Assembly (NCBI GenBank): GCA_945876035.1
Contig: CAMCMU010000001.1
Location: 1 to 64,000 of the forward strand
Direction: 5' to 3'
Source: Schlesneria paludicola DSM 18645
GTDB lineage: Bacteria; Planctomycetota; Planctomycetia; Planctomycetales; Planctomycetaceae
DNA: 64,000 nucleotides
Part shown: positions 10,666-61,900 of the stretch, one piece after another
Layout: every line of letters begins with the position of its first letter
Position numbering within the stretch: the stretch's first letter is position 1
Program-made: the position numbers and the translations under genes
Notes under the pieces: generated by a model
Databases searched by the model: none
Seen by the model: the letters and a program-made list of their open reading frames with translations, nothing else
Told to the model about the DNA's origin: nothing

Positions 10666-10825
10666 CGGCATGATCCCTTTGAAGACAAATCAAAACGTCT
10701 GCATTCGGCCTTGATCTCTTCGTCCTCGACGGTCGTGTTGCTCGCACGATTTGCTAGCTGCAGAGGCACGCGACAGGCAGTCAAACCGGCCAATCACCCG
10801 CGGCGGAGCGGCCGTTGATTGCCGG

Positions 10826-38500: not shown

Positions 38501-38959
38501 TATGTCACGAGCACTGCCAGTATCAACCCGGCTGTCTACAGCAGCCAACGACGGTCGGTTTATCTTCCGGTCGTCCGCAGCGCACTCTACGAATTTTTTT
38601 CGGCTTTCGATTTTGCCGATCCGAGCACGATGAATGGCCAAAGAGACCATACGACAGTGGCTCCCCAAGCGTTGTTCATGATGAATAGCGAATTCGTCTT
38701 AAGACAATGCCAAACACTCTACGAGCAACGACTGGCGACAAGCCCTTCCTCCACTTCTGAACGAATCACGACCCTTTATGAACTTGCGTACAGTCGACCG
38801 CCAACGGCTTCTGAAATTTCTCGGGCGAGTGATTACCTCGCTCACTTTCGAGCGGTCACTTCACAACTCCTTTGGAATCCGAATGAGGTCGATTCCAAGG
38901 CATGGGTCAGCCTCTGCCGTGCGGTTCTGGCAGCCAATGAATTTTTGTACATCGAGTGA
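35517..38959 (+). pseudogene. PSCyt1-PSCyt2-PSD1 protein gene, split by one frameshift
   Basis: Two frames together encode one exported protein of about 1,148 residues. Frame 1 (35517-36374) gives a signal peptide, the PSCyt1 heme motif CRECH near residue 58, and the start of PSCyt2/DUF1549 (FIRRLTLDLIGLPPTRDEV). At GATC 36239-36242 the family sequence ERVIDRLLASPRYGERW is cut; its rest, from RLLASPRYGERWARHW, continues in the next frame to 38959. Restoring one GATC copy (GATCGATC) repairs the frame exactly. The second part shows CARCHDHKFDP (CxxCH), a carbohydrate-binding-like insert (IEAEDYARGNVSKDR, about 510-620) and the PSD1 block LTARVMANRVWLWHFGQGL. It pairs with the DUF1501 gene behind it. 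It may be a real mutation or a sequencing error. Confidence 0.88.
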
Positions 38960-39012
38960 ACCCACGTCTTCAGCGGACGGCGTTCAGCATGTCGCGAAAG
39001 AAGAGTGAAATC

Positions 39013-40437: not shown

Positions 40438-40557
40438 TGCGGATAAGAATTTCAGGCCACCACGCTTAGCCATCGATGAATCGAATCCCAAGCATCGAAA
40501 TGAAGACTTCAGCGGTGGCCGGTCTGTCTGTCCACGGACTGATCCCTTGAGGCTATT

Positions 40558-41889
40558 TTATGCAAACAATTCCGAAATCGGTGTGGGATCGCTGACAAGA
40601 TGTGTGGGTCGTCCTTGGGGGGTATAAAGGACTTTATCCGGGAGAATGCCAAGTTTCTTGTAGACGCTCGAAACGAAATTCTCTGGCGACAGAACTCGAT
40701 CTACGGCATTATAGCCAGCGCGATCGGTAGCTCCGATGATTTGACCACCAGGAATTTGAGCTCCAGCCAGCATGACGCTCATGGACTGCGACCAGTGATC
40801 TCGTCCGGCATCGACATTGACCTTCGGTGTGCGGCCAAACTCACCCAAAAGTAGCACCAGGGTGCTATCGAGTAGACCGCGTTCGTTCAGATCCTCGATC
40901 AGTGTTGCCACCGTGTTGTCGATCTGAGGGAGACGTTCATTCAATGCTTTAAAAATCTGGCCGTGATGATCCCAACCACCCTCATTCAACGTAATGAAGG
41001 GGACGCCCGCTTCGACAAGCCTTCGCGCCAGCAGCGCACGTTGACCGAAGGTGTTTCGACCATAACGATCTCGAACCGTATCCGGCTCCTTGTTCAGCGC
41101 AAACGCCGCCTGCGCCTGCTGACTTTGCATCAGGTGTTTGCTTTGCTCATGGTACTCGTCGAGTACCCGCACCGGATCAGCCGCAGCGGCAGCATTGATC
41201 CGCTGCAATCGATCGACGCGAGAACGAATATTTTCCCGCCGGACAAATCGCTCGTCCGTGATGCCGCTAGGTAGGGCCACGTCGCGCACGCGAAAAGACG
41301 ACTGGTTGGGATCGTCCGGAACAACAAACGGTGCGTATTGGGCACCGAGAAAACTGGGGCCACCTGAGCGTGTCATCGACGGAATCGAGAAATAGGCGGG
41401 CAATCCATCCTTATTACCACGCGTATGAGCCGTGACGGAACCGAGTGACGGATGGAAACTGACATAGGCGCCACAACCGACCGGTACTCGTGGAGGAGCA
41501 CCGGTGATCATGTAGTGGTTTCCGCCACCGTGAATGGTTTGGTTATGACAAATCGATCTCACCACAGCCAACTTGTCGGCGATACTCGCCAACCGGGTCA
41601 GATGCTGGGAAAAAAAGATGCCGGTGACCTTGGTCGAAATCGGATCGAATTCGCCACGCACTTCCCTTGGCGCGAGCGGCTTAGGATCAAACGTTTCATA
41701 GTGGGACGGCCCCCCGTCCAACCAAATCAGAATACAGCTCTTCGCCTCCATCTTCGGAGCCGCTCCTGAGTCAGCAGCCAACGCTCTGCGGAGCAGTCCT
41801 TGCGCCATTCCCATACCCATGAAGCCATTCAAACCTAGCTGAATAACATTACGACGGGTGATGCCATTGCAGTTCCGATAAATTGTCAT
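40558..41889 (-). CDS. Exported DUF1501 protein, second copy
   Basis: A 443-residue paralogue of the DUF1501 protein at 39013. The RR signal is GITRRNVIQLGLNGFMGMGMAQ. Conserved blocks are ILIWLDGGPSHYETFDPKP near 53, SICHNQTIHGGGNHYMITG, FGQRALLARRLVEAGVPFITLN, GGWDHHGQ and LLLGEFGRTPKVNVDAGRDHW near 345. It lies downstream of the PSD1-type gene 41996-44557 on the same strand (106-base gap) and ends 120 bases from the end of the other DUF1501 gene, facing it. Sequence divergence between the two copies is large, so this is not a recent duplication. Confidence 0.93.
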   Translation of the reverse strand: MTIYRNCNGITRRNVIQLGLNGFMGMGMAQGLLRRALAADSGAAPKMEAKSCILIWLDGGPSHYETFDPKPLAPREVRGEFDPISTKVTGIFFSQHLTRLASIADKLAVVRSICHNQTIHGGGNHYMITGAPPRVPVGCGAYVSFHPSLGSVTAHTRGNKDGLPAYFSIPSMTRSGGPSFLGAQYAPFVVPDDPNQSSFRVRDVALPSGITDERFVRRENIRSRVDRLQRINAAAAADPVRVLDEYHEQSKHLMQSQQAQAAFALNKEPDTVRDRYGRNTFGQRALLARRLVEAGVPFITLNEGGWDHHGQIFKALNERLPQIDNTVATLIEDLNERGLLDSTLVLLLGEFGRTPKVNVDAGRDHWSQSMSVMLAGAQIPGGQIIGATDRAGYNAVDRVLSPENFVSSVYKKLGILPDKVLYTPQGRPTHLVSDPTPISELFA

Positions 41890-41995
41890 GGTTGATCTCC
41901 AAAAGCGTAAACCAAGAAAGACTCAAAAAACGTCGATGATCCAAGCAACGTGGATCCAAGCGATTCGGTTTTGAGAATTCTGCGGCTTTAATTCC

Positions 41996-44557
41996 TCAGT
42001 CTTTAAACACAAACTCCGGCGTGTTGATCAGGGCCCACATTAGGTCTTCAATCGCTTGCCGACGGCTGGTATCAGGTTCTTGAAAGAGGCCGACTCCTAG
42101 TTGCAGTTCTTCCGGGTTGGGGCGACAGGCATACAGCCCGAGGTAAACGTCTTCAACAATCTGTTCGGGAGTCTTTTCGGATTTCGCCAACTCTTCTGCG
42201 CGGCTGCCGTCGCTGGTCAGTTTCTTGGCGAGAGTGTTTGAATTCATTAAGTGAAGTGATTGGACGATGGTGGTGTCCGCCGTACGCTCACACGGGGGGT
42301 CTTGATTCGGGTCTTGCCGGCCGAACGCGTCCAGAAACAAGGAATCGATCCGTGTAGTCCACAGTTCCTTCGCACGAGATCCCGCCGGCATCGCATCGAA
42401 TGTTTCGCCCACTCCTGTCGCAAGACAGACGGTATCCAGTAGCACTTCCGCTCGTAACCGCTGTCGATAGTGTCGGGAGAAGTTACGGTGATCGATGGCA
42501 TTGTGTTCGTTACAAAGGGAGCTCAGTCCATAGACGTAACTGCTGGCAATACGACGGACTAGTTTTTTGATGTCGTAGCCTTGCAAACGGAAGTCGTCTC
42601 CTAATGCTTCAAGTAATGCCGCATTGGAAGGGGGGTTGGTCATTCTCAGATCATCAACAGGATCAACGAGGCCACGGCCCATCAGGTCGGCCCAGACTCG
42701 ATTTGCCATGACCTGTCCGAAGAACGAATTCTCCTCCGAAGTGATCCAATCCGCGAGGCTCTCACGAGGATCTTTGGTCCCGTCTAACGCAGGGGCCTTG
42801 CCGAAAAGTGGTTTGGGTGTCATCGTCGCCTGTGTGAGCGGATGCTTCACCTCACCCCCTTCCATCCTCGTAAAAATGAACTCCTCATGCGGAGAGATGG
42901 GAGCCGAAATACCGTCTCCTTTGCGAGCGATCTTCGCAAAATATGCTGCAAACGAGTAGAACTCGGTCTGTCCATAAACCTCGAACGGATGATGATGACA
43001 CCGAGCACATTCCAGTCGCACGCCTAGAAACAGCTGGCTAACAATTGTCGTCACGTCTTCCGGCGTACGCCGGTCGCGGAACATGACGACATTGCCGTTA
43101 CGGAAACTGCTGCCCTGTGCGGTAATCAGCTCGCGAACGAACTGGTCGTAAGGCTTGTTCTTTCGGAATGCGTCTCGGATCCACGTGTCATAGGCTAACG
43201 TGCCTTTAATGCCGACGTGATACGGATTCGGACGAAGAAGGTCAGTCCATTTATTGGCCCAGTGCTCCGCGTATTCGGGGTTGGCCAGTAACCGATCAAC
43301 GAGGGCTTCTCGCCACTGTTGTCTGGCCGCGCCGACTCTTGAACGTCGTTCTTCGTCCGCCTCACGGCCCCTGACAGGAAGAACCAGGTTCGATTCCTTG
43401 TGAGAAACCTGATCGTTTGTCGACCGACTTTCAGAGGGACAACCATCCAAAAATTGTCGGGCCTCATCGGATGTGGGACCGCGGCCGATGATATCGAGAT
43501 ACACACGACGCAAGAACGTGTGATCGGCACAGGGGTCTGAAGGGGTCAGATTCAGGGTCTGCAGCTTAGCCCAGACATGCCCGTCGATGAAGTTATACTG
43601 AGGAAGTGCGGTGTAAAACTCACCGGCGATGGAATCGGAATCCGGGACAGCCAATGTGCAAACGGAGATTTGCCCCAGATACCGAGCCATCACAGCCGTG
43701 TCCCCAACGAGCGTTCCCGCGGACAGCAATCCGTTCTGAGTCACACTCACCAAGGCCGGTTCGTTGGAGAGATACGCCGACATTCGAGTCACGTCACGCG
43801 TTGAGCCATCGCTGAATTTAGCAGTCACTCGCAACTGCTGTTTTGATAGTTTCGTCAAAACACGCTCTGACGGCTCGACAGAAATTCCCATCAATGTCAC
43901 GGTTTTTTTTTCTCGGCGTGACATGCCGGCAGTGATCCAATCCAAAAGAATCTGGTACTCAGATGATCCACGCTCAATCCGCTTTCCTCCCCCGTGAGGC
44001 AGTTGAGCAGTCGGCTTCAATAGCAACAGACTTTCCTCGGCCGCGCCAGAGAAGTGACGCCGACCTCGCGAATCTTTCACCAGAGAATCGTAATCAAAGT
44101 CGGAATCGAAGCCGAGAAGACTCAGCTGAAATCCGTTCTGTCCTCGCTGCTTCCCGTGACATGCTCCGGAATTGCACGAAAACCGGCTGAGCACCGCCTG
44201 TACGTCACACTCAAAGTCAACGGGATCTGCAACGGACACGCGTTCGACGACAACGGGAATAGTCGTCTTTTCACCTTGAAATTCGATGAGTAATACCGCA
44301 TGACCATCGGCCAGCGGATCAACGAATCCCGAGGAATCAACGTCGATGACCCCGGTCGGCGTCACGGTGTAATTTGCGTCCCTTGTGACGTCAAACAATC
44401 CAGACGTCACAAGAATCTGACTCGCGGATAGACGACCGCTCAGATGGATCACTTGCGGCGAGACAATCAATTCGCCGACGCATTCCTGAGAATCGACGAT
44501 AACAGAGATGATGGTGATTAGAAACAGATGCGTCAGTAAAAAACGGCCTGTTTTCAT
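41996..44557 (-). CDS. Exported DUF1549/DUF1553 (PSCyt2-PSD1) protein with Ig-like N-terminus
   Basis: The 853-residue protein starts with a signal peptide (FLLTHLFLITIISVIVDS). A bacterial Ig-like region follows, about 30-105 (LIVSPQVIHLSGRLSASQIL and the following strands). A cytochrome-like motif CNSGACHGKQRGQNGFQLSL sits near 132, then a second Ig-like region near 225-310. PSCyt2/DUF1549 starts near 330 (FLRRVYLDIIGRGPTSDEA) and includes a CxxCH motif in LECARCHHHPFEVYGQ near 515. PSD1/DUF1553 (FGQVMANRVWADLMGRGL) extends to the end. Heme c binding is suggested by CxxCH, not shown. It forms a pair with the DUF1501 gene downstream. No frame break is seen in this copy. Confidence 0.92.
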   Translation of the reverse strand: MKTGRFLLTHLFLITIISVIVDSQECVGELIVSPQVIHLSGRLSASQILVTSGLFDVTRDANYTVTPTGVIDVDSSGFVDPLADGHAVLLIEFQGEKTTIPVVVERVSVADPVDFECDVQAVLSRFSCNSGACHGKQRGQNGFQLSLLGFDSDFDYDSLVKDSRGRRHFSGAAEESLLLLKPTAQLPHGGGKRIERGSSEYQILLDWITAGMSRREKKTVTLMGISVEPSERVLTKLSKQQLRVTAKFSDGSTRDVTRMSAYLSNEPALVSVTQNGLLSAGTLVGDTAVMARYLGQISVCTLAVPDSDSIAGEFYTALPQYNFIDGHVWAKLQTLNLTPSDPCADHTFLRRVYLDIIGRGPTSDEARQFLDGCPSESRSTNDQVSHKESNLVLPVRGREADEERRSRVGAARQQWREALVDRLLANPEYAEHWANKWTDLLRPNPYHVGIKGTLAYDTWIRDAFRKNKPYDQFVRELITAQGSSFRNGNVVMFRDRRTPEDVTTIVSQLFLGVRLECARCHHHPFEVYGQTEFYSFAAYFAKIARKGDGISAPISPHEEFIFTRMEGGEVKHPLTQATMTPKPLFGKAPALDGTKDPRESLADWITSEENSFFGQVMANRVWADLMGRGLVDPVDDLRMTNPPSNAALLEALGDDFRLQGYDIKKLVRRIASSYVYGLSSLCNEHNAIDHRNFSRHYRQRLRAEVLLDTVCLATGVGETFDAMPAGSRAKELWTTRIDSLFLDAFGRQDPNQDPPCERTADTTIVQSLHLMNSNTLAKKLTSDGSRAEELAKSEKTPEQIVEDVYLGLYACRPNPEELQLGVGLFQEPDTSRRQAIEDLMWALINTPEFVFKD

Positions 44558-45079
44558 GTTATGGATTCTGAGGAAGGCGTAGAAGGCAGCAGCAACGAGG
44601 CAAGCTAACGGAAATAATTATACCTCATCACCTGCGGCGGCGGCAAGTTGTCATATCTTAATGTTTTCTGTCAGGGATGCTCCGGCCTGATCCGTCTCCC
44701 GACCGTACCTCGCCCTTCAAACATCGGACTCTTTCGAAGGATACGATGGGCGACCGTGACAATCGGGAGCCGTTCGATGACGCTAGTTCCGGCTCTGTCC
44801 ACCATCCATCGCTGTCACAATGGCAGAAGATCCACGCCGTTGTTGTCGAATTGGGTCGGCACATTTTTCAGTGAGGAAGCAATCATTTCTGGATTGAACG
44901 GAAATTAAGCTCGAATGAATCCACGGGATACAGACATTTTCGATATTTAACGTGACGGTTGTTGTTGCTACCTTGGTAGCAAGTCCGGCGGTACGACCTT
45001 TGCAATTGAGGACATCGCAGCGGGGAGACTTCCGACAATGATCACCGCTATTACAACCGTTTTTTTCGAGGGTTATCTC
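44558..45079. other. Control region of the small heat-shock genes
   Basis: About 520 bases between the divergent PSD1 gene (minus) and the first small heat-shock gene. It holds the perfect palindrome at 44965-44982 and no supported gene. The frame of the heat-shock gene is open from 45038 (ATG with GGGGAG upstream), so a 14-residue longer start is possible. Confidence 0.5.
44965..44982. promoter_or_regulatory. Perfect palindrome upstream of small heat-shock genes, candidate operator
   Basis: TTGCTACCTTGGTAGCAA is an 8-bp perfect inverted repeat with a 2-base spacer, 98 bases before the chosen start of the first small heat-shock gene. It is neither CIRCE (TTAGCACTC-N9-GAGTGCTAA) nor the HspR element. 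A dimeric repressor or activator site is the likely reading; a hairpin with a 2-base loop would be strained. Confidence 0.6.
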
Positions 45080-45538
45080 ATGGCCGTCTTTCGCTGGGGA
45101 CCAACTTTTAATCCTCTTCGGGATTTGGAACGAGAAGTGGATCGGCTCTTAGCTGGCGTTTCCATTTCATTTCAGGGGGTTCGCCTTGGAAGACAGTACC
45201 CGCCGGTCAACCTCTATGACGTTGAAGACGAACTGTTATTGACGGCAGAATTGCCGGGAACTCGTCCGGAGGACTTGGAAGTTCTTGTCTCCGAAGGTGT
45301 GTTGACATTGAAGGGAAAACGTTTCGGGGCGGAAGGGGTGATGGATGATTCTTATCGGCGGCAGGAGCGGCCTCGCGGACCTTGGCAACGATCGCTGCCA
45401 CTTCCGGGGCCGATCCAAGAAGACAAGTTGAGTGCGGAATTTACGAACGGTGTTTTGCGAGTTCGACTTCCGAAGTCTCCCGCCACGATACCAAGGCAGA
45501 TCCAAGTCTCCGATGGAAGTTCCCCGGTCATTGTTTGA
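45080..45538 (+). CDS. Small heat-shock protein, Hsp20 family (first of two)
   Basis: A 152-residue ATP-independent chaperone that binds unfolding proteins. The alpha-crystallin domain covers about residues 40-140: PPVNLYDVEDELLLTAELPG, DLEVLVSEGVLTLKGKR, and the conserved end FTNGVLRVRLPKSP (GVLxxxLPK type). N-terminus MAVFRWGPTFNPLRDLEREV is typical. The ATG at 45080 has GAGGG 7 bases upstream. The second Hsp20 gene follows 48 bases later on the same strand, so the two are likely co-transcribed under the control region with the palindrome. Confidence 0.93.
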   Translation: MAVFRWGPTFNPLRDLEREVDRLLAGVSISFQGVRLGRQYPPVNLYDVEDELLLTAELPGTRPEDLEVLVSEGVLTLKGKRFGAEGVMDDSYRRQERPRGPWQRSLPLPGPIQEDKLSAEFTNGVLRVRLPKSPATIPRQIQVSDGSSPVIV

Positions 45539-45586
45539 TGTCAAAACACGTGGTACGCCATATTTTCGAATGGCGAGGAGACAGGC

Positions 45587-45985
45587 ATGTCCCATGAAAT
45601 CGTGAAGGCAGGTGCCACTTCCACGAGCCAAGACCAAGATTCGGCGAATGACCCGGTTGTCTTTACGCCACCCATCGACATCTTTGAAACGCAAACAGGT
45701 TTGGTGTTGATGGCCGACCTGCCAGGAGTAACACTAGATTCTCTGGAACTTCAGGTCCAAGACAACAAGCTGACACTGTACGGCCGTGTGACACACGACA
45801 TCCCCACGAACGCGAGGCTGATTCACCAAGAGTATGCTCTCGGCCACTTCCTGCGATCATTTATTCTCAGCGATGAAGTCGATCATCAGCATGTGACTGC
45901 AAAATTGAATCAGGGTGTGCTCGAAATCGTTCTGCCTCGTGTGCCGAAGGCTGAACCGAGACGCATTCAAGTCACCTCCAGTTAA
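45587..45985 (+). CDS. Small heat-shock protein, Hsp20 family (second of two)
   Basis: A 132-residue Hsp20 protein. The alpha-crystallin domain fills residues about 27-130: PPIDIFETQTGLVLMADLPG, LELQVQDNKLTLYGRV, and LNQGVLEIVLPRVPKAEPR at the C-terminus. The N-terminal arm is polar and different from that of the upstream copy, suggesting the two form mixed or specialised oligomers; this is inferred. Ribosome-binding site GGAGA lies about 8 bases before the ATG. The ABC-transporter operon converges on it, with 260 bases between. Confidence 0.93.
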   Translation: MSHEIVKAGATSTSQDQDSANDPVVFTPPIDIFETQTGLVLMADLPGVTLDSLELQVQDNKLTLYGRVTHDIPTNARLIHQEYALGHFLRSFILSDEVDHQHVTAKLNQGVLEIVLPRVPKAEPRRIQVTSS

Positions 45986-46245: not shown

Positions 46246-48447
46246 TCAACCTCTGGGCGGGAGCCTCTGCCCCATTTTTTCACACGGCATGAAGTCGTGA
46301 TCAGAGGCCACCTGTCCATTTCCAATGCACAGCAATAACGTCCCCAGAGACGCCGCGAATGCGGCAACCGCGAGACAGACGAAGGGCAGATGCTGATGAG
46401 ATTCGACCCCGATGCCAAGCCCTTTCAGTTCCTCCGTAAAACTCGACAACGACAGCAGAAAACCATTGTGCACGACATGCAGCAGCATTCCCGGCCAAAT
46501 GCTTCCGGATCGGACACAAATCGCAGCAAGAGTCAATCCGAGGAAACATGTCGGAAAGAAACGTTCTGAAAACAATGACTGCTGAACGATGACATGAAAC
46601 AAACCAAACAAACCGCCGGAACAGGCGACGGCCAGCGGTATCGACATTTTTGTGCGACAGGAAGACAGGAGGAACCCGCGAAAGAACAGTTCTTCACAAA
46701 TGCCGGGAATAACAGCAAGGCACAGGAGTTTCATCCACAATCCCACCGAGTCCAGTTGCGTCTTAAAGGGGGCAAAAAGTTTTTCGAGCATTTCGAGGCG
46801 TTCCGTGGAGAGCATCAGCACTTGCATCTCATACGCGAAAGGCCAGAGGGAGAGACCGAGGATGGCACAGGCGACCACGTTCCGAAAGGAGGCCCTGCGT
46901 AACGACAGTCCCGCCGTCCATGAGACCCCTGTGCTCCAAGTCAGCGTCAGTGGAAGAATGGCGAACAGCAGCACCGTGATCATCGCATTAGCGGTTAATC
47001 TTCCGCCAATCGACAGCGACTCCCATCGTGCAGGAATGCTGCTCAAAATAAGAAACGAAGGGAACAGGACCGCCAGCCCGAACAGAGCCTCACCCAACGA
47101 TGGCGACGAGCGTGGCTGATCCGGCCGCCGAAACAGGTCTGCCCAACCGCCATCGCTCCCGTACAGCACGGCATCTGTTCCGAAAATTCTCGCGGCCGCA
47201 GCAAGGGCCACCGCAGCGTAAAGAACGGTTGAAAACAGCGTTGCCACGGCCCAGATCGGCACCACTCGCTCATCGAAGACATCGCGGGCGAGAAGCACAA
47301 TGTTGACTAAGGGCGTGACGGCATAAGTCGCGTTAAACTCAATCCCCGGAAGCAGACATAAGACTCCGGGAGCAAGCGAGACGAGCATGACGGGAATCAG
47401 GTAAGCCTGTGCCTCTTTGAAACTGCGTGCGAAGCTCGTTAAGACCAGAATGATCGCCGAGAAAAATGCCGCGAAGACGCACAGAAGTCCCAGCGTTGAA
47501 ACGATGACTGAAAGGGTGATCCCACCCGCCCCAAACAGAAGACCCTCTAATCCACTGGCGTAGGAGGTCACCACCATCGACAACAGATTTGCCAAGGCGG
47601 TCAACATCGCCACGCACAAGACAGCTAGATATTTTGCAAACAAGAGTTCGTGCCTAGGAACCGGTGCGGCGACGAGCGCCTCGAGCGTCCCGCGTTCGCG
47701 TTCTCCGGCCGTCAGGTCAATCGCAGGATAAACGGCACCCGTGACGGTCATCAGAATCAGGATCAGCGGAACCAAAGTCGCCAATGAAAACGGGGAGTCA
47801 CCGGGACCGGTTTGCTTCGGCAGGGGGATCGATTTGACAAAGAATGGGGATTGCGGTTTCGTGATATCTCGCGAGAAGACCTCGCCGGCGTGTGCCTCGT
47901 TCACCGCTCGAAAGCGTTCCTCGACAAAACTCCGAACGGAGCGACTATGGATAGAGTCCGGCCGGTAAACGACTTCACACGTCAGCGACATCTCCTCCGC
48001 CTGACGAACCAAACGAACGCCCACATCGCTCGTCCGATCTTGGACCAACTGTGTGACATCGGCCACAACGTCTGGATTTTCGGGCGCCAGCAATTGAATC
48101 AACGGGTCCTCGAGAGTGCCGGCTGGCGGCACGCCTGGATCGAATGTCCCCGTTTCCCGAATGCCAACAAAACGGTGGCCTATTCTAAACAGTTTTTGAA
48201 AGTCGACTTGGTCGGATTGTCGTTCCAGGGCGATGCGATATTCAACTTTTGATTGAGACTGCAGTTGGGAAACGAGCAGCTTTTGCATCGTCACTCCCAA
48301 CAGCGGATAGATCAGTAGCGGCATGCCAATCAGCGTAATGATCGTCCGCCGATCACGCAGTGTTTCCCGCAGTTCTTTCGATGTCATTCTCCACCAACGT
48401 GGCGACCGCCAACCGAACAACGATAAACCGCGATTGTCATTCGACAT
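46246..48447 (-). CDS. ABC-2 permease (NatB-like) fused to CPBP intramembrane protease
   Basis: The 733-residue membrane protein has two parts. Residues 1 to about 450 are an ABC-2/NatB-like export permease: one N-terminal helix ([16 protein letters not shown]), a large extracytoplasmic loop, then five or so helices after [32 protein letters not shown], a typical NatB signature. Residues about 500-733 form a CPBP (Abi/CAAX protease-like) domain with EELFFRG near 584, FGLFHVI and HVVHNGF, the three glutamate/histidine motifs. The start ATG (48447) overlaps the end of the ATPase gene by 11 bases, so the two are translationally coupled. The exported substrate (Na+ or other) is unknown. Confidence 0.9.
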
Positions 48448-49213
48448 GTGGCAACACCTCCGGCACGGCACGAGATTCTGGGGGCGGCGTACTGAGTAAT
48501 TGAAGAAACATGTCATACAAAGTTGTCTGACCGGTGATTTGTTGCAGACTGGGAAACGTTCCCTCGTGACGCAATTCGCCGTAATGCAACAACCCCATCC
48601 GATCACAGACGTGAGAAGCCTCATCCAAACGGTGCGTGGAGATCACAATCGCCTTCCCCAGTGACCGTAGTTGCTCGATGTACTGAAAAACGATGTGCGT
48701 TCCGACGACGTCAAGACCGCGTGTCGGTTCATCAAGCAGCATCACGGGGGGATCATGAATCAAGGCCCGCGCCAATGTCACCCGCTGCTTTTGTCCGGTA
48801 CTCAGCGTCGCACATCGCTGATCAAGAAATCGGCTGAGATCCAGCAGTTTGGAAATTTCTGACAGCCGCTTTGCCGCCTTTTGCGGATCGACTCCATAAA
48901 GGTCTGCGAAGAAGAACAACATCTCGCGTGGAGTGAGCCACTGGTACAAACCGGCGCTAGCCGAGACCAGTCCGATGCGTCGTTTGACCTCATCGGAATC
49001 ACGGGTGACGCGAAATCCATCCACGACCGCATCGCCACAGGTCGGCTGGAGAAGTCCAAGAATCATACGCAGTGTCGTCGTCTTACCGGCTCCGTTGGGG
49101 CCGAGTAATCCGTAGACTTCTCCCGCTTTGACCTCAAACGACAAATTGCTCACAGCGGTCAGCAACTTGCCATTGGAACGAAACTGCCGAGTCAGACCAG
49201 TCACGGAGATCAT
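48437..49213 (-). CDS. ABC transporter ATP-binding protein, NatA-like
   Basis: A 258-residue ATPase that drives the permease encoded next to it. Walker A is GPNGAGKTT (37-45), the ABC signature LSTGQKQR is near 137, Walker B is [12 protein letters not shown] near 158, and the switch His is in ISTHRLDEA near 192. The pair resembles NatAB sodium exporters and CPBP-fused relatives. The start [11 protein letters not shown] at 49213 fits the family. It is the first gene of the operon; no promoter motif was recognised. Confidence 0.93.
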
Positions 49214-49631: not shown

Positions 49632-51347
49632 TTAACGCTGCTTCAGAGCCTTTCTTGGCACGTGCGCCTCCAAATCTTCGACTCTCACGATCAAACTGGC
49701 GTCTCCCAAGTTTTTTGCCAAACGCACTCCAAAACGATTGTCACCAAATTTGGCCAACTTTGATGCGGCCATATCAAGAATATAAAGGTGAAAAGGTGGA
49801 AGTGGAATCCCTTCCCTTGCTGTTTGGCCATCACTGTCAAACACGCGACGAATATGCGATGCACGAACCGTCTTTCCGTTGAGAGAGAATTCCAATTCGT
49901 CATTGTCTGCCAGGCCCGTGACCTTAAATCTCAACGTTGCGACGAGATTCGCATCGTTCCAATCCTCAGCAATGCGGAAATCTAGTGACGCGGAAGGATC
50001 TTTCGCGAGTCGATCTAACTGGATGTCTTCCTTTTTGGCGATTCCTGTGGGACGCATTCCCTGCTGACCCACGGCCAGGGCCCGACCGATCGCCGACACA
50101 CTTTCGCGTGGCCCACACCAAAGCGGATGGTACAGATAGTGTCTTGTATCCCGGGCCACGTCTTGGGGATCACGCAAACCCGTCAGATCACCCATCGCTC
50201 GAGGCCATGCGTCCGCCGATCCCATGTCTTCACGCCAGTGGTATTGGTAATTGTAAACCGAAATACCGTGGGCACCAAATTGATAGTAGTTGTGCGCGGC
50301 GGCCCGATAACTCTCAGGCGTATGACATTGATGATCATTTCCTCGACCGATTCGTGGATGAATTGAGGGATAAACCCGGCAAGCTGTTCCCTCAACCAGT
50401 TTGAGGTAATCCTCCGTCCGGATGTTGCTGTCCGTATGAAAAAAGTCTGTCGGACAAATAAAATCTACAGAGCCGCTCCGAACCCAAGCCGCCACGTCAA
50501 AACCGAGCGAACGACATTCCTCAAGTGTCTGGGGAATCCGAACGCCGAGAGCCAGACGAGCACGTCCCCGCTTGTGCGCAGCTTGATCCAGCAATAGTCG
50601 CACCTTTGCGACGAAGTCTGTCAAGAGAGGCGCATTCTTCTCTGCTTCTAAACTTTGAAACATGTGACACCAACGCATCCAATCCAATTCCAAGCCGTCC
50701 ACGTCGTACCGCTCCAAAAACTCTCCCACGAAATCGAGAATCATCTGGCGGACACCATCGTTCTTATAATCCATTCCACCCGGATACTCCGTCAATTGCC
50801 ACTCGGGATGTTGACCGGACAGCGGCGAGGATGTCCCATGACGATCATTCATCCGCAATCCACCCAAGAACTCCATCCCTTTCTCGTGGGCGCGATCGAT
50901 CATCACTTTCAATCGATCGTAACCGGCATCTTCAAGCGGCTTCAATCCCATCGGTCGCCCCTTGTGGTAAACATCACGAAGTTCGTCCCGATAGAAACTC
51001 TTGAAGTTGGCTGAAACCGTCCCGTTAGGCAGAGCGAAAACGGTTTGAACGATGCAGTCAATCTTCGCTTTTGCGTGTTCGTCAATAATGTCTTCAATCT
51101 TGGCTTTGACCTCTTCTGCCTGGGGGTCATTGTCCATGTGCGCATACGTCAACTGAAGAGACGAGATCGCCGCTTGATCCCAATTGATCAGCAGTCGGCG
51201 TTCACGAACCGATTTTTGGGGAGCAGAATCGGCCGCAGGACTGTTAGTTTCGAGGATCCGTATGCCACCGACAGTCAGCAGAAATCCACACAATATTCGA
51301 AAAACTGCGGAACGTCGTTGGCTAGGGTCAACATAGTCCAGTTGCAT
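49632..51347 (-). CDS. Exported glycoside-hydrolase-like TIM-barrel protein
   Basis: The 571-residue protein has an N-terminal hydrophobic signal (VFRILCGFLLTVGGIRIL). From about residue 50 to 400 it reads as a GHL10/alpha-amylase-like TIM barrel: LLINWDQAAISSLQL near 52, DRAHEKGMEFLGGLRMNDRHG near 151-171, and VDGLELDWMRW at 216-226, whose Glu/Asp are candidate catalytic or structural acids, then ARLALGVRIPQTLEEC and GISVYNYQYHW. The last 150 residues form a beta-sandwich-like tail (DASLIVRVEDLEAHVP). Ribosome-binding site AAGGA is 9 bases upstream. It is the last gene behind two exported paralogues (113-base gap), suggesting a shared substrate. Confidence 0.78.
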   Translation of the reverse strand: MQLDYVDPSQRRSAVFRILCGFLLTVGGIRILETNSPAADSAPQKSVRERRLLINWDQAAISSLQLTYAHMDNDPQAEEVKAKIEDIIDEHAKAKIDCIVQTVFALPNGTVSANFKSFYRDELRDVYHKGRPMGLKPLEDAGYDRLKVMIDRAHEKGMEFLGGLRMNDRHGTSSPLSGQHPEWQLTEYPGGMDYKNDGVRQMILDFVGEFLERYDVDGLELDWMRWCHMFQSLEAEKNAPLLTDFVAKVRLLLDQAAHKRGRARLALGVRIPQTLEECRSLGFDVAAWVRSGSVDFICPTDFFHTDSNIRTEDYLKLVEGTACRVYPSIHPRIGRGNDHQCHTPESYRAAAHNYYQFGAHGISVYNYQYHWREDMGSADAWPRAMGDLTGLRDPQDVARDTRHYLYHPLWCGPRESVSAIGRALAVGQQGMRPTGIAKKEDIQLDRLAKDPSASLDFRIAEDWNDANLVATLRFKVTGLADNDELEFSLNGKTVRASHIRRVFDSDGQTAREGIPLPPFHLYILDMAASKLAKFGDNRFGVRLAKNLGDASLIVRVEDLEAHVPRKALKQR

Positions 51348-51459
51348 CTGATGTGATCCTTAGTTGAAATTTCTTGTTAGGCCGTTGATAACATCGACCC
51401 GTATTTCAAAGCATCGAGAGGAGGGATGGTCCCGCGGCGATAGGACATCCGTGTCCCTG

Positions 51460-52722
51460 TCATCCACCGAAGTGCGACGCTTCTGAAGCCCGATAGGAAA
51501 TATTTAGTTCCGGCGTCTGGATCCGTTGAAAACCGCTGACACGCGAGTCGAGGGCTCGTTCAATAACTGAGCTCGTGAGTTGCGTTCGTTCCACGGGATA
51601 GGGAGCTTTACCGGTCACGATCATTTCCTCAACCTGTGCCATGAGGCAGGCGGAATAGGCGACGTTCGGCTCGGGTGGTGCGTAAAATTGGGTGGAGATA
51701 ATCTCGTCGTTCGCCAATCTGACAGCACCGTTGAAGTCTGACATCACTCCATTGAGCATCATCACTGTGGCGCGCAGCCCATCGTTGTACTCAATGAGCA
51801 ATGCCGTCACAGGCCGATCTTTTCGAATCATACCTGGCAATTTGCCGTTGCGGACCAAATCTTGTGGGCGAGAATCGAGATCAGAGTCCCCCGAGATGGA
51901 GTCTGATCGCGAAAGAGCGGCCTCCAACAGACGCTTCGACCACTGACCCTCCTCACCGGCGCGCCAGACAGCATCTCCTTCGAGTAGCTGTACGGACTTC
52001 ACGCCGGTTTCACCACCACGGCGCCGCTCGACCATACTTTGCAGTGCTTCGTAGACGTGAAATGCGGTGTGATCGACAGCACCCATGCCGATCGCCAATG
52101 CCTCTTTCACCTCCGCTCCATAAGGAACGTCCACAGCGGGCAGTCGCCAAGTGACAGGGACCGAGGATCCCGCCAAGAAAGGAAAACCAAGGCGTTTAGA
52201 ATCCTGAACCATTTTTGCGGCATGCTGCCAACTGTAGGACAAGTGCTTGTCGTTGTAGATCGGTACCGATCTACCATCCTGCTCGAAAACCTTGACCGCT
52301 TGTTGAAAAAAATCGAAGCGAGGATACAGCTTTTGCCCTTTTTCGTTGTCAGGATATTCCCCGTGCTCACCAATGATCACGACGCCATCCACGGCAAGTT
52401 TGTCGCCTCCACATCGCAGAGCCTGCGCAATTGTTGGCTGGACCGTAAAGCCGTATTCCTCAGCACGTTTTACGCTCAGGTCGGCATCATTCTTTTGGTC
52501 CACGTACGCCGAGACCACTTGAAGTTGTGATTTGTGCCATCGACCATGTCGGGGATAACCGACGAGGAATCGGTCTCCCATGTGACCGCAATGAGACAGG
52601 TAGGACCAGATTGTGGCGACAATTGCAATTTTTTTGGGCGTTGGGTCGGCAGCGTCTAATCGATTCAACCCCGCAAAACTTGCCGCTCCCAATGCACCTA
52701 GAAATGTACGTCGATCAAACAT
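51460..52722 (-). CDS. Exported protein, DKHLS/PVTWR family (paralogue 2)
   Basis: A 420-residue protein with a Tat-like signal (MFDRRTFLGALGAASFAGL). It shares with the paralogues at 19024 and 52723 the blocks SHCGH, DGVVIIGEHGEYP, YNDKHLSY, LAGSSVPVTWR, MVERRRGGETGV and YPVERTQLTSSV. The layout suggests a degenerate Gfo/Idh-like enzyme exported after folding, but no nucleotide-binding GxGxxG is seen, so the function is open. Its ATG directly follows the stop of the upstream paralogue (TGAATG), with GGAG upstream, meaning tight translational coupling. A GH-like gene follows 113 bases downstream. Confidence 0.78.
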   Translation of the reverse strand: MFDRRTFLGALGAASFAGLNRLDAADPTPKKIAIVATIWSYLSHCGHMGDRFLVGYPRHGRWHKSQLQVVSAYVDQKNDADLSVKRAEEYGFTVQPTIAQALRCGGDKLAVDGVVIIGEHGEYPDNEKGQKLYPRFDFFQQAVKVFEQDGRSVPIYNDKHLSYSWQHAAKMVQDSKRLGFPFLAGSSVPVTWRLPAVDVPYGAEVKEALAIGMGAVDHTAFHVYEALQSMVERRRGGETGVKSVQLLEGDAVWRAGEEGQWSKRLLEAALSRSDSISGDSDLDSRPQDLVRNGKLPGMIRKDRPVTALLIEYNDGLRATVMMLNGVMSDFNGAVRLANDEIISTQFYAPPEPNVAYSACLMAQVEEMIVTGKAPYPVERTQLTSSVIERALDSRVSGFQRIQTPELNISYRASEASHFGG

Positions 52723-54009
52723 TCAGGATCTCCAAAACATGGATTCTTGGACGGGTTCGTATTGAACGGCCAAATGAGGGGTCTCAAGACGTTTTTGTTT
52801 CTGATACGACGACTCAATCCCCGCCGCGGTCATTCCAGTGGTCAGTAGTGTACGTTCCACGGGATACGGCGATTTTCCGGTTGTGAAGAGAGATTCAATG
52901 TGGTGCACCTGCGGGCTGAAAAAATTCCGCAAGGTTCGATAAGGAAGATGGAATAAAAGCGAAAAGACATCGCCGTTTTTCAGCCGTGCGGCAACATTGA
53001 CGTCTTGTACCACCCCTCCCCCGTCGAACTGAATGATCGTAGCCTTGAGTCCATCCCTGTATTCAAACCGATAGGCGTAGGAATCCGGCGCCATGCGGCG
53101 GATATCTTCTGGGGTCGGAAAGTCGTGGTTGTAACTGGGTCGCGATGGAGTCAATTGATGGCTCCGCGACAAGGCCGAATTCAACAATTCGGGATCCCAA
53201 CCCCCTTTGTCCCAGGAACCGGCTTCCATGGCTTTCCAAAACCGATCTCCTCGAAAAGCTTCCACGGAGCGAACACCGGTTTCACCACCCTGACGCCGCT
53301 CCACAATAGCCTGCATTGCCTCAATCACATGAATGTCTGCGCCATCGACTCCGCCACGCCAGATGCCAACAGCTTCCTTGACGTCCGCACGCCACGGCAA
53401 ATCCTCAGACGGAATACGCCAAGTGACGGGAAGTGAGGATCCAGCCATCAGGCCAAAATTCATCTCCCGAGATGTTTTGACCATCTCCAACGCGTAGTCC
53501 CAATTCCACGAGAGGTGCTTGTCGACGAAAATCGGTGCCGTACGACCGCTCTGCCGATACACGTCCACCGCTTGCTGAAAGTACTCGTAACGCGGGTAAA
53601 GAGCCTGTCCCTTCTCATTTGTCGGATATTTTCCGTGTTCGCCGATCAGCAAAACTCCGTCAACATCGAGTTTGCTTCCACCTTGAGTCAACGCTTCGGC
53701 AATGGTCGGATAGATCTTCATTTCGGAATGGCGACTGGCACGCTCACGGCTCAGATCGTCGCTGCCGACCTGTTCCACATACAGAGAGACCACGTCCATC
53801 GCCGGCCGGTGATGTTTCCCTTCCCAACCGTACCCCTCAAGGAAGCGGTCCACGATGTGTTGTGCATGCGAATATTTGTGATAGATCGTTGCCAACGCTG
53901 CGATGCGTGGCCGTCGTTCGGCAGCGCGCGCGGGCGTTGTGAATAATGCGGGACCCAGCGCAAGAGACGTCGCCATTCCCGCGAGAAAATCTCGTCGTGT
54001 GCCATGCAT
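52723..54009 (-). CDS. Exported protein, DKHLS/PVTWR family (paralogue 3)
   Basis: The 428-residue protein starts at ATG 54009 (MHGTRRDFLAGMATSLALG, a classic Tat signal with TRRDFL) because GGAG lies 9 bases upstream; the frame is open further, to 54273, without family character. Conserved blocks match its two paralogues: HKYSHAQHIV, DGVLLIGEHGKYPTNEKGQ, FVDKHLSWN, LMAGSSLPVTWR, IVERRQGGETGVRSV and YPVERTLLTTGM. The mature N-terminal region (RIAALATIYHKYSH) has a beta-strand where a Rossmann fold would begin, but no glycine-rich loop. It is the first gene of the minus-strand operon ending at 49632. Function unknown; an exported oxidoreductase-like role is inferred. Confidence 0.8.
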   Translation of the reverse strand: MHGTRRDFLAGMATSLALGPALFTTPARAAERRPRIAALATIYHKYSHAQHIVDRFLEGYGWEGKHHRPAMDVVSLYVEQVGSDDLSRERASRHSEMKIYPTIAEALTQGGSKLDVDGVLLIGEHGKYPTNEKGQALYPRYEYFQQAVDVYRQSGRTAPIFVDKHLSWNWDYALEMVKTSREMNFGLMAGSSLPVTWRIPSEDLPWRADVKEAVGIWRGGVDGADIHVIEAMQAIVERRQGGETGVRSVEAFRGDRFWKAMEAGSWDKGGWDPELLNSALSRSHQLTPSRPSYNHDFPTPEDIRRMAPDSYAYRFEYRDGLKATIIQFDGGGVVQDVNVAARLKNGDVFSLLFHLPYRTLRNFFSPQVHHIESLFTTGKSPYPVERTLLTTGMTAAGIESSYQKQKRLETPHLAVQYEPVQESMFWRS

Positions 54010-54752: not shown

Positions 54753-56249
54753 ATGAGCCGATCATTGCCTCCGCTGACGTTGTCCCTCGTTTCAATCGTG
54801 CTATTTTGGAGCGTTGTTGACGCTGCCCATGCCGGGCCGCCAAATCTTCAAACACCAGAGCTTAAACACGACATCGATGGCGATTCCCGTCCAACCACTC
54901 CCAATCACGGCCCGAAATTAGGGGAGCTGATTTCCCCCCTCTCACTGACGCCGTTTGTCGCGTTGCTTTTGTGTATTGCGATCTTTCCGCTGGCCAACCC
55001 AGACTGGTGGGAACACAATCGAAACAAGACATTGATCGCGTCCATCCTGGGCCTTCCCACGGCAGCTTATCTGCTCACATATGGCCCCCCCGGCATGCAC
55101 TCGCTGGAGCACGTGGCGAAGGAGTATGTCTCGTTTATTGTGCTGCTCGGTTCGCTGTTCATCATCAGCGGGGGAGTCTACGTGCGCGGGGCGTTTCATG
55201 GTTCGCCCGTGATCAATACCACGTTCCTCGCATTGGGAGCGTGCTTGGCCAGTTTCATCGGCACCACCGGAGCGTCGATGCTTCTCCTGCGTCCTTTGTT
55301 ACGTGCCAATCAACGACGGCGTTCCATGGGGCATGTGGTCGTCTTTTTCATCTTCATCGTCTCGAACTGCGGCGGATTGCTGACCCCCCTCGGAGACCCT
55401 CCACTGTACATCGGATTTCTCAAAGGTGTCCCCTTCGAATGGACACTGCAACTGTGGAAGCAGTGGGCCTTTGTGAACGGCTCGCTGCTGATCACGTTTT
55501 TCGCTTGGGACACGCTTGCGAGTCATCGAGAATCTCGCACGGCTGCCGAAAAGGAGCCATTGGAAACACTTCTCTCCCCAGAGACGTTTGGCATAAATGG
55601 TCAGCACAATTTTTGGGGACTGGCCGGAATTATTGCGGTGATTTACTGCTCGGGACAGGGAATCGGCAACGGCGGTCAGGTGTATTCGTGGGGCGTGCAG
55701 GATGGATTGATGGTCGCCATCACAGCGATTTGTTATTGGTGGACTTCTGCAGCAATCCGGGCCAACAACCGCTTCTCATTCGGACCGATCATCGAAGTGG
55801 CGATTTTGTTTTCGGGTATCTTCGTAACGATGATTCCGGCATTAGCCCTCCTGAGTGTGCATGGCCGTGGCTTAGGAATCGAGACTCCGGCGCAGTTTTT
55901 CTGGGTCTCTGGAATGTTGTCGAGCTTTCTCGACAATGCACCGACATACTTGACGTTCGCGGTCACCGCGTGCGGAATCCACGGAGTCAATACCGAGGAG
56001 GGCCGCTATCTCGCCGAGTTTCTCAAACTCCCCGTTGCCGTCGAGGCCGCTCGAATTCTGGCTGCCATCAGTTGCGGTTCGGTCTTTATGGGAGCCAATA
56101 CTTACATCGGCAACGGCCCGAATTTGATGGTCAAAGCGATTGCCGAAGAAAACAACGTTCGCATGCCCGGATTCTTTGGCTACATGGCCTACTCCGGAGG
56201 CGTCCTGATCCCGATCTTGATTGCGACAACGTTCCTCTTCTTCGTCTAA
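54753..56249 (+). CDS. NhaD-like Na+:H+ antiporter / CitMHS_2 family transporter
   Basis: A 498-residue protein with a cleavable-looking signal (LVSIVLFWSVVDAAHA), a polar segment, then about 12 membrane helices. IT-superfamily features are FIGTTGASMLLLRPLLR near 169, SNCGGLLTPLGDPPLYIGFLKG near 206 (the conserved helical-hairpin motif), FLDNAPTYLTF near 389 and the second hairpin CGSVFMGANTYIGNGPNLM near 437. The combination fits the putative Na+/H+ antiporter family related to NhaD. It would expel sodium using the proton gradient. AAGGAC lies about 12 bases upstream. It converges on the membrane protein gene at 56265 with only 15 bases between stops. Confidence 0.9.
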   Translation: MSRSLPPLTLSLVSIVLFWSVVDAAHAGPPNLQTPELKHDIDGDSRPTTPNHGPKLGELISPLSLTPFVALLLCIAIFPLANPDWWEHNRNKTLIASILGLPTAAYLLTYGPPGMHSLEHVAKEYVSFIVLLGSLFIISGGVYVRGAFHGSPVINTTFLALGACLASFIGTTGASMLLLRPLLRANQRRRSMGHVVVFFIFIVSNCGGLLTPLGDPPLYIGFLKGVPFEWTLQLWKQWAFVNGSLLITFFAWDTLASHRESRTAAEKEPLETLLSPETFGINGQHNFWGLAGIIAVIYCSGQGIGNGGQVYSWGVQDGLMVAITAICYWWTSAAIRANNRFSFGPIIEVAILFSGIFVTMIPALALLSVHGRGLGIETPAQFFWVSGMLSSFLDNAPTYLTFAVTACGIHGVNTEEGRYLAEFLKLPVAVEAARILAAISCGSVFMGANTYIGNGPNLMVKAIAEENNVRMPGFFGYMAYSGGVLIPILIATTFLFFV

Positions 56250-58961: not shown

Positions 58962-61900
58962 TTATGGGAGCTTCGGCGCGGCCGACGTATTTTTTTGAGG
59001 GCGCACTTTTGCCGCCATGAATCCCACCGACGGATCCGCATCATTCTGGGAGGTTTCTGGATTGAAAAGCACACCTGATGGCATCGTCGAGCCGAAGGAC
59101 TTCCGTTTCGGATTGGACCGTAACAGAGCCCATGTGACCCACACCAAGCCGCCAACACAGATCACGGCAACAACCATCAGGAGCCATTGTCCGGCAGATT
59201 TTCTCTGGGTCTCGGCAGTCCGTGGGGATGCGTCGTCGTGTTCGATAACCAGAGCATTCGTGACTTGACCGGACGCAGAAATCTCCGCGTCACGAGCTAG
59301 GTTGATCGAGGGCCGGCCAGACTCTTGAAGGATCTCTCGAAACAGGGGGTTGAATTTATTGTACCATTCCGCGGCCATGTCTTTGGTAACAGTTGCGGTG
59401 GCGATGATTTCCGTGAGGCATCGTTCCAGCTCTTTTTGTTTTTCCAACGGCGGCAGACGACCGGCGTAAATCCGCCGAGTTTGAGTTCCCTTGAATCTGG
59501 CATCAAGAAACGTTTCGAGATACGCCGGATCGATTCCGAACGCTTTCGATCTTTGGACCCTCAGACTGATTTGTCCCCATCCCCACGCGCCCACTCTGTC
59601 CTCGCCACGAATCGCGGCGAGCAACTGCGTGGAACCGTCCGCCCCACGGCTTGTGCCCCAATCGCGATACAATTCACTGGCGACACACTGGATCTTAATA
59701 TCATTCGGGCGGGCCTTGAGGATTTCGCCCATCAACGATTCGGCAGCTTCGAACTCTTTCATCGACTGATAAACGCGAACCTGTCGAAGCTTGATACGTA
59801 ACAACTGGTCGGGTGATACGAAGTCTGTTCTGAGTGTTGATTGCGTCACAATTTGGCGAAAGGCCATCCCTGCCATCCGGTAAAAAGAGGCTGATTTGTC
59901 GACATTGTTCGCCACACTTTCGCCAAGTGCGCAATACGTCTCCCCAATCCAACTCAACGTCATGAAGGTCTGGCCCTCGGTGCGTTCGGACAAATCATTG
60001 AGAAAAGTCTCAAAAGAGACTAAGAGCTTTTGGAATCGATCCACTTCACCGTTGTTCCGAAAGCGTTCCAATTCTTCCTTGAGAAGCCGACCCAGCCCGA
60101 CATAGAGATCGGTGACATCGGCCACAGTTTGAGAACTCCCCGCTTCGGAAATGGCCTCCAACCGACTCATTGTTTCTCGAGCCTGCTGGAGATTCCGGGT
60201 GCCGACGCAGGCACGAAGCAACAGTTTGTAGGTTTCGATCGCAAACGGACGGCCGGTGATTCCGTAGTCGGGACGCTCCGATTCCTGTTCCACGGAAACC
60301 GCTTTGGTGATCGAATGAGGATCTTCCGTAAGCACAGTCAAGGCCTCCGCATCCCGACTCTGGCGAATGAGTATTTGGGCAAGCGACAACTTGGCGGAAA
60401 TCAACTCTGGTGTTGCCGGACCCTCCTTCGGCAGAAGTGCTTCCTGTTGGGTCAGCCCTGTTCTGAGGTATCTCGCGGCCCGCTCAAGCCAATCATTCAA
60501 TTCCTGTGCGGCACCTGTACCGACGTCGAGGGAGTCCTCATAGACATTCAAGTAAGCCTGCCCTGCGGCGATTTGAGCGTGGCCGAATCGCGAATCCGAT
60601 TCGGGAATTTTCCCATACCATTCGGCGGCTTGAAGCGGTTGCTTCGCGCGACTGAATATTTCGCCGAGCGTCATCTGTGCTTCATAGCCTCTGTCACTCG
60701 AAGGCCAGCGGTCTGTGATCAAATTGCACGCTTGAATCACCAGTCGAATGTCCTCTGCTTTTTCCTCAAACGGCAACTTATTGTCATGGAACGCCTTGAC
60801 GAATGCGGCGAACCCCATGAATGCGGCATCCAAACCGACGGTCCCGTTGCTTCGGTCAGCAGTCCGAGCCACGAATTGGGCCAGCACGGCGGATTCGTAA
60901 TTCTTACCCTGCCAATAATTGACATACGCAGACCAGAGCCGCGCCTCGGTCGTGCGTTTTGGATCGCTTCGTTTTGTGGCCAGACTCAAAACATTGTCGA
61001 GGTTCTGCGCCGCCTCCTCCAACGCGTTTTGCCAGTCTTTGTCACGTGTCTCCGTTGCCTGAGTGGATTGCAGGGGCCTTGCCGCACCATCGATTTCTTT
61101 TTGGAGTTCTAGGGCCGCTCGAAAGGATTGCCCGGCAGAGATAAATGCCGAATCAAAATCGCGAGGAACCGGCGACTTGCCGCCTAATTTGACCTGCAAT
61201 CGCTCAAGCATCGATTGCGAGTCCTCTTTAAACTCACTGGGATACTTGTTGATTTGGGTGGCCATGGAGCGTGCCTGACGCCAGACCCGTTCGGCCTCTG
61301 ACTTTGACTTTTTTCCGAAGGCATCGCCCACCAATTCCAAGGCTCTGGCCTGCTCCCATTGGATTCCAAGGCCCGTTTCCGTACGCCGATTGGACGGGTT
61401 CTTCTTGAGCCATTCCTCGGCCAGCTCGATGACCTGCTGTGAGTTGTTCTGTTCTTTGCCGTTGAGACAAATCATCTTAAAGTAGAGCGTCTGCGTCTTG
61501 AGTTTTTCTAATTCCGGATTCTCGCCCGGATGGTCGAGCAGTTCCGTGTAAATTCCCATGGCCTGTTGTCTGTCATGACACTCATCGTAACATTTCCCCT
61601 GCCATGCGCGGGCGTAAAGTCCACCCACTTGACTGCGGTAACGCTGGCTCATTGTCTGAAATTCCGACGCAGCGTCGTACAAGAGTTGTTGAAATGTCGG
61701 AGTTCCTGTGTCATAGGTTTGCGCCTCGTAATACCGACACAGCGCGAGATTCAACATCGCGTTGACTAAATTTTCTTCGGAACTGACTCTCGCCAGAAAT
61801 TGATCCGGCTCCTTCTGTTGATCAATAAATTGCGGATACGTTTTTAATGCCGCCTCGTGTTGATCAAAAACCGTCCGAAACAACGCTCGGGCCTCGATCA

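Follow-up and report, generated by a model that had tools for sequence, protein, structure and literature searches.

A recurrent pair of coupled paralogues with a predicted sugar-oxidoreductase fold, adjacent to a GH156-like glycosidase gene in Schlesneria paludicola

The window analyzed here is a stretch of 64,000 nucleotides from Schlesneria paludicola DSM 18645 (contig CAMCMU010000001.1, positions 1 to 64,000), and this study concerns three successive genes on its minus strand. Two of them encode paralogous proteins, A (52723..54009, 428 amino acids (aa)) and B (51460..52722, 420 aa), called paralogues 3 and 2 in the original prediction. The third (49632..51347) encodes P0003 (571 aa), a barrel glycosidase resembling family GH156 of the glycoside hydrolases (GHs), with a hydrophobic N-terminal stretch by our own reading. 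The original prediction described a compact module of two tandem exported paralogues and a GH-like gene. The three open reading frames are indeed present and the stop of A abuts the start of B in one frame (TGAATG, 52720..52725); the gap between B and the glycosidase gene is of 112 bases (51348..51459) and not of 113 as stated. A and B are 45% identical over 430 columns (E 2e-118) and both begin with an RRxFL-type leader. The start of A is the ATG at 54009; a second in-frame ATG lies two codons upstream and the open frame extends to a GTG at 54273. The region shows no excess of promoter-like (3 versus 3.3 in shuffled sequences) or terminator-like matches (4 versus 6.1), and none of the terminator-like sites falls inside the 112-base gap.

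The A-B pair is a recurrent unit. The searches covered 59 genomes of relatives (the source genome included), 392 genomes of the phylum, 397 of the class and eight genomes carrying a homologue of P0003 (hereafter GH-positive), plus one GTDB contig scan; the matches listed for the class reach down to about 1e-115. The A/B family is present in 45 of the 59 genomes of relatives and in more than half of the class genomes (228 of 397, E<=1e-88 to B), yet neither A nor B reaches the cut-off of any Pfam or NCBIfam model. The source genome holds nine copies, one of them a more distant paralogue in the window itself (L007, 19024..20319, minus strand, 39% identity to B; L, G and C numbers designate loci, genomes and contigs of our set). 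An A-type gene was found beside, or fused to, a B-type gene at 27 loci in 26 genomes, i.e. one natural fusion and 26 separate pairs; an extra locus, L018, has a truncated A, and the pair of genome G752 came up by chance via this locus. These loci belong to the same class, except for three phylum genomes outside it (L148-L150) and one metagenome-assembled genome of Verrucomicrobiales (L017). B starts between -4 and +9 nucleotides from the stop of A in 24 of 27 cases (the 26 separate pairs and L018). These distances were counted by hand, with the start chosen to fit the leader or the domain; in L190, for instance, starts are possible at -85, -4 and -1.

In a maximum likelihood tree of 113 rows (quick mode, midpoint root), a group of 33 (92 by the Shimodaira-Hasegawa-like approximate likelihood ratio test, SH-aLRT) contains all 26 A rows, and another of 30 (SH-aLRT 99) all 28 B rows. 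The remainder, 36 unpaired relatives (SH-aLRT 91) and 14 distant rows, stands apart from both groups.

The fusion (G587:C14, L191:7701-10220, minus strand) is an open frame of 839 aa with a single twin-arginine (RR) leader and a linker devoid of stop codon. Leaders were scored by a simple rule, and not by a signal-peptide predictor: RR with, after it, a window of 12 residues whose mean hydropathy is >=1. Both N-termini are readable in 25 pairs (L148, where A is truncated, was excluded): the leader is present on both proteins in 11 pairs, on A only in nine, on B only in three and on neither in two. Thus 12 of the 25 pairs carry exactly one leader. In the B tree, six of the nine A-only loci group together (family f2, support 100), and another, L087, nests in a group of 14 rows (97) whose other rows have B leaders. 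An ancestral leader would thus require at least two independent losses on B. Of the family's other rows, 52 of 59 pass the leader rule, the rows of G731 being two of the seven failures. The twin-arginine translocation (Tat) system transports complexes that are already folded and of which one partner bears a leader, according to the available parts of two reports (PMC4273604, PMC10924467). The simplest reading of a fusion with one leader, and of 12 pairs with a leader on one partner, is a complex formed before export. The original prediction had suggested subunits of one complex as one of two options. This option is well supported, though indirectly, by the recurrent order and coupling of A and B, the natural fusion and the absence of the leader from either partner; taken alone, we regard it as quite probable.

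What kind of protein are A and B? The Pfam model of the canonical nucleotide-binding domain of Gfo/Idh/MocA oxidoreductases, PF01408, is absent from the matches of A and B at E<=1 and from those of 38 family members at E<=5. Over these 38 members Pfam returned weak matches (best E 0.0021): TAT_signal in 12, DUF2849 in four, the UCR_Fe-S_N leader in three, GXWXG in two, and two further models in one member each. At E<=0.01 PF01408 matches the source genome 33 times, never on one of its nine A/B copies. The AlphaFold2 model of B, computed from an alignment of nine sequences, has a predicted local distance difference test score (pLDDT) of 83.4 and a predicted template modelling score (pTM) of 0.84. 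Compared with the PDB it retrieves Gfo/Idh/MocA structures (best Foldseek E 4.2e-13). Re-alignment with VIA-align 2, which covered Foldseek's own top 1000 structures, gives a Z of 25.6 with GenD2 (6nor; 283 residues, root-mean-square deviation 3.3 A), 22.9 with RgNanOx and 22.8 with YjhC. B is thus predicted to adopt the two-domain Gfo/Idh/MocA fold (Rossmann plus alpha/beta), and from its 45% identity to B we infer the same fold for A.

Sequence profiles bring the family to the same place, at weak scores. With the 38-member profile the best PDB sequences are RgNanOx (6z3b, E 0.041) and YjhC (6o15, E 0.27), over 40-43 residues around a DKHLS motif which, in this HMMER match, aligns with the EKP motif. 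Comparison by hhalign with 11 canonical proteins of the source genome gives the same DKHLS/EKP register (E 5.7e-4, probability 29.5%); a forced global alignment reaches E 4.9e-6 and 70.5%, with an unconvincing C-terminal half. H222 was considered as the catalytic histidine and dropped, the C-terminal half of the full-length alignment being unconvincing. The dinucleotide loop is missing: GxGxxG occurs in the beta-1/helix-A turn of none of the 113 family rows (L155 is truncated before the turn; the A row of L189 is shortened, its N-terminus lacking the motif), versus 11 of 11 canonical rows that have it somewhere. A looser first pattern, GxGxx[GAS], had matched 23 of the 113 rows and was abandoned: the five matches inspected were GYGWxG after helix A, and restricted to the turn the pattern matched 0 of 113. 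Residues E119-H120-G121, D158-K159-H160, R193 and H222 are invariant in 38 rows, K159 aligning with the lysine of EKP. Since the loop is gone and the EKP lysine and invariant polar residues are kept, the reaction would be redox-neutral or nucleotide-independent, unless the proteins serve in recognition. The missing loop argues against ordinary binding of nicotinamide adenine dinucleotide (NAD), without excluding NAD. A and B both retain K159, H222 and the EHG and DKH motifs, and therefore both may be active. We consider A and B members of an unnamed family that is a variant of a known fold.

The third gene is GH-like, as originally proposed: P0003 matches the Pfam model GHL10 with 39.8 bits (cut-off 27.9). 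Its best PDB match is the GH156 exo-sialidase EnvSia156 (6rzd), with E 2.3e-23 for the single sequence, 8e-36 for a four-row profile and 6.7e-42 for a 12-row profile (residues 96-371 of 6rzd); the next match is Cwp19 (E 1.7e-15). EnvSia156 uses Asp14 and His134 as its catalytic pair and binds the carboxylate through Arg129, Arg202 and Asn346, as given in the accessible text of PMC6811678. The alignments equate R165, D168, H170, R225, R270 and N366 of P0003 with R129, D132, H134, R202, R246 and N346 of 6rzd. These six residues and D57 are invariant in 12 of 12 aligned P0003 homologues. D57 lies near the start of the barrel and is likely the counterpart of Asp14, judged by its position, as the alignments to 6rzd stop short of residue 14 (range 96-381 at most). 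Tyr135 and Gln351 of EnvSia156 are replaced by G171 and W371; the contacts to the glycerol chain and C5 therefore differ, and the substrate of P0003 may be a 2-keto sugar acid other than sialic acid. P0003 thus appears to be a GH156-like exo-glycosidase, probably cleaving a terminal 2-keto sugar acid (sialic acid, 3-deoxy-D-manno-oct-2-ulosonic acid (Kdo) or related). In the founding paper of GH156, as far as its available part goes, most of the 38 homologues belong to Bacteroidetes or the PVC superphylum (PMC6254351). GH156 enzymes of environmental Planctomycetota are elsewhere said to likely target plant glycans (PMC11929135, in a passage citing another paper). At L187:6484-9256 (G618), a GH156-like gene and the BNR_2 gene that follows it on that strand overlap.

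Few genomes carry a homologue of P0003: 2 of 392 phylum genomes at E<=1e-70 and 9 of 397 class genomes at E<=1e-60, the source genome included in both. Of the 27 pair loci, that of the window has a glycosidase of this kind and that of G622 a divergent one, fused as GHL10-BNR; in the fetched stretch of the other 25 none was found. The neighbourhood survey that had been suggested as a check thus separates two parts of the original prediction: the A-B pair is kept together in relatives, and the trio nearly never. A conserved module of three genes was accordingly discarded, the trio itself being seen in the window only. The nearest pair to that of the window, from another family (G622:C104), has an A 81% identical, a second B 79% and a first B about 70% identical. 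Its locus (L189, G622:C104:3000-21000) carries on one strand, at 131-12930, genes for a lactonase, the GHL10-BNR_2 fusion, BNR_2, A, B, the second B, 3keto-disac_hyd and an aldo/keto reductase. The GHL10 part has 30% identity to P0003 in a 279-residue alignment, with RMNAED in place of the RMNDRH of P0003; it is therefore not the same gene, by this comparison. The run at L189 is, in its own right, a candidate glycan-processing operon, richer than that of the window.

At the level of genomes the two elements do co-occur. With the source genome excluded, a verified pair is found in 5 of 8 GH-positive versus 17 of 388 GH-negative class genomes (Fisher 1.7e-5), with E limits (1e-60 for GH-positive, and that for pair-positive) chosen after earlier results and statistics that ignore relatedness. 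In GH-negative genomes pairs were counted with a B match to about 2e-139, a limit inside which the five GH-positive pairs lie. These five are in G587, G754, G023, G622 and G403; G684 and G618 lack a verified pair and that of G731 is possibly split. Among the 58 relatives outside the source genome, one is GH-positive and the same test gives p 0.086.

Other neighbours of the pairs were also recorded. At L214 (G518:C4, 1077-4474), BNR_2, MFS and DHDPS-family genes lie upstream of the pair, with a reverse-strand gene between. For the BNR_2 protein there is a weak match to a neuraminidase model (43.7 of 900 bits), and the best match of the DHDPS protein is N-acetylneuraminate lyase, below cut-off (149.8 of 281 bits). 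This row is a possible sialic-acid catabolic set. Two further DHDPS-family genes give weak hints: one near the G037 pair scores best as DapA and one near a paralogue on contig C3 of the source genome as N-acetylneuraminate lyase, both below cut-off. Canonical Gfo/Idh/MocA genes occur within several kb of the pair at 8 of 27 loci (L088, L089, L149, L212, L213, L218, L221 and L222), seven of them belonging to family f2. Sulfatase was considered as a common partner and rejected: sulfatase-type genes adjoin the pair at two loci only, L016 and L018, and at L092 they lie close to a GH homologue; those of L016 and L092 have NCBIfam matches below cut-off.

Together these results lead us to the following proposal. 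An old duplication within an unnamed family with Tat leaders would have given A and B, inherited since as a translationally coupled unit. Both proteins would fold and pair in the cytoplasm as a heterodimer, or an A-B heteromer, of the Gfo/Idh/MocA fold. The folded particle would cross the membrane via Tat as one, a single leader sufficing and the leaderless partner, whichever it is, hitchhiking. In the periplasm A-B would act on a sugar by a redox-neutral or nucleotide-independent reaction (of the elimination, epimerisation or hydration type), or recognize it. In the source organism the GH156-like glycosidase, picked up locally, may supply or expose this sugar. We hold this proposal as a whole to be moderately probable. 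A glycan context for A-B is likely, and the glycan processing foreseen by the original prediction stays plausible with a GH156-like third gene and the fold of sugar oxidoreductases predicted for B. We take the glycosidase as an occasional partner of the A-B pair. Overall, the original interpretation is partly supported.

Several observations weigh against this proposal. Two pairs (L149 and L150) have no leader on either protein, and three have A-B gaps of 129, 160 and 876 nucleotides. Seven rows of the A group and two of the B group stand outside adjacent pairs; two of these nine are the A and B of G731, on different contigs with B at a contig start, so that this pair may be split by assembly, and two are on contig C35 of the source genome, non-adjacent. 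The correlation between the distances of A and those of B (26 loci, r 0.78, none of 2000 permutations as high) fits the proposal but would also arise from common inheritance alone. A read-through model of A-B was poor (pTM 0.37) and speaks neither for nor against a complex: in its alignment, MAFFT had placed B-type rows on the A half, which left the B half without aligned relatives. Clustering of all neighbouring open frames >=120 aa at the 27 loci, after removal of A/B and of frames that overlap them, gave no cross-family cluster common to more than four loci; nine clusters span at least two families, namely DUF1501 at four loci, PSCyt-type, ABC (ATP-binding cassette) ATPase and a cluster of unnamed function (L215, L217 and L219) at three each, and the remaining ones at two each. 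None of the eight other GH-positive genomes has a P0003 match on the contig of the pair. Finally, these eight genomes hold 11, 10, 11, 8, 5, 8, 1 and 11 family copies; with 8 to 11 copies in six of them, the co-occurrence of glycosidase and pair may reflect lifestyle.

The pairing of A and B could be explained otherwise. They could be two separate exported homo-oligomeric enzymes for sequential steps, the coupling merely setting equal dosage. RgNanOx, which is built on this fold, is a homodimer in the available part of its description (PMC7535918), the conservation of K159, H222, EHG and DKH in both proteins would allow both to be active, and the A-group genes devoid of a B neighbour fit such independence. 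But unless A and B associate physically, it is difficult to account for a natural fusion that has one leader and for the 12 of 25 pairs in which a single partner carries a leader, and we consider this alternative unlikely. The missing leader could also mean a division of labour, one paralogue being periplasmic and the other cytoplasmic, as the nine A-only and three B-only loci might suggest. Against this, the partner that lacks the leader can be A or B, both leaders are present at 11 loci, and a fused A-B cannot occupy two compartments; such a division is highly improbable.

The three genes could form a dedicated unit for scavenging N-acetylneuraminic acid (Neu5Ac), released by the glycosidase and converted by A-B as RgNanOx and YjhC do. 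The GH156 similarity, with the dyad histidine and carboxylate anchors kept, the fact that the two PDB sequences ranking first with the A/B profile, at weak scores, are both sialic-acid oxidoreductases, and the gene row upstream of the G518 pair are in favor of this. It is countered by the changed glycerol-chain and C5 contacts where alignable, by the lack of any match to the NanE family (PF04131) in the source genome (96.85% completeness), by the 25 loci free of a P0003-like glycosidase, and by the VIA-align scores of RgNanOx and YjhC, no closer than many other sugar dehydrogenases. We find a Neu5Ac unit rather improbable. More serious is the idea that the glycosidase gene arrived by chance, through local rearrangement, and shares no role with the pair: its adjacency is not conserved across the 27 loci, and in other genomes its homologues lie on contigs other than that of the pair. 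Still, the genes share a strand and a 112-base gap with no terminator-like site, the nearest pair (G622) also adjoins a GHL10-type glycosidase, and glycosidase and pair co-occur at the genome level. Chance adjacency is a real possibility, which we place a little below even.

If our preferred reading, an exported A-B heterodimer, is correct, a heterodimer lacking the nucleotide loop would represent a new use, outside the cytoplasm, of a sugar-oxidoreductase fold with a very large membership, and the natural absence of the leader from either partner would make a clean test case for Tat hitchhiking. A broader picture can be drawn, of a widespread planctomycete family that lost the loop to become an obligate two-subunit, nucleotide-independent periplasmic sugar enzyme, exported as a Tat heterodimer in which either subunit hitchhikes, and located near GH156-type ulosonic-acid glycosidases in some lineages. 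We regard this generalization as doubtful.

The surroundings of the three genes do not agree with the claim that no transporter lies beside them. Downstream on the same strand are an ABC ATPase gene (48437-49213), beginning 418 bases from the glycosidase gene, and a gene for an ABC-2 permease with a CAAX domain (46246-48624); upstream of A is a divergent gene for a citrate-type (CitMHS-type) transporter (54753-56249). In the run directly downstream of the three genes (46246-49213, minus strand), the ATPase gene overlaps that of the permease, which is fused to a CAAX-protease (Rce1-like) domain. Further on, two successive small open frames at 45038-45985 (plus strand) form one similarity cluster, the first matching HSP20. 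Both strands of the region 36245-44557 contain gene pairs of PSCyt2/PSD1 plus DUF1501, and for an open frame of 1175 aa at 58962-62489 (minus strand) neither Pfam nor NCBIfam gave a match at E<=0.001.

No description of the A-B pair was found in titles and abstract openings of the literature, in a search that left subscription journals mostly outside. Like the Gfo/Idh/MocA oxidoreductases (GenD2, BsIDH, RgNanOx/YjhC), A and B have a predicted two-domain fold in which DKHLS aligns with EKP; unlike them, they escape detection by PF01408, have no GxGxxG at the beta-1/helix-A turn, carry the motif EHGxYP...LYPR and come as coupled paralogues. The glucose-fructose oxidoreductase of Zymomonas (1ofg/1h6d) shares the Gfo fold with the B model, by both Foldseek and VIA-align. 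It is Tat-exported, with tightly bound NADP, a single gene and a canonical nucleotide loop; A/B differ by their two subunits and the lack of a canonical loop. Among Tat hitchhikers, we know of no pair of Gfo/Idh/MocA paralogues in which either member may lack the leader. The proposed A-B complex would nevertheless resemble Tat hitchhiker complexes (PaoABC, one-signal heterodimers), where one leader serves a folded complex, as far as the accessible descriptions tell. A redox-neutral precedent is RgNanOx, which performs elimination and hydration on sialic acid with a Gfo/Idh/MocA fold and tightly bound NAD (PMC7535918, available part). As for P0003, it differs from EnvSia156 in two glycerol-chain/C5 contacts, and its sialidase activity is putative; it resembles EnvSia156 (6rzd) in six matched residues, including the acid histidine and the carboxylate binders.

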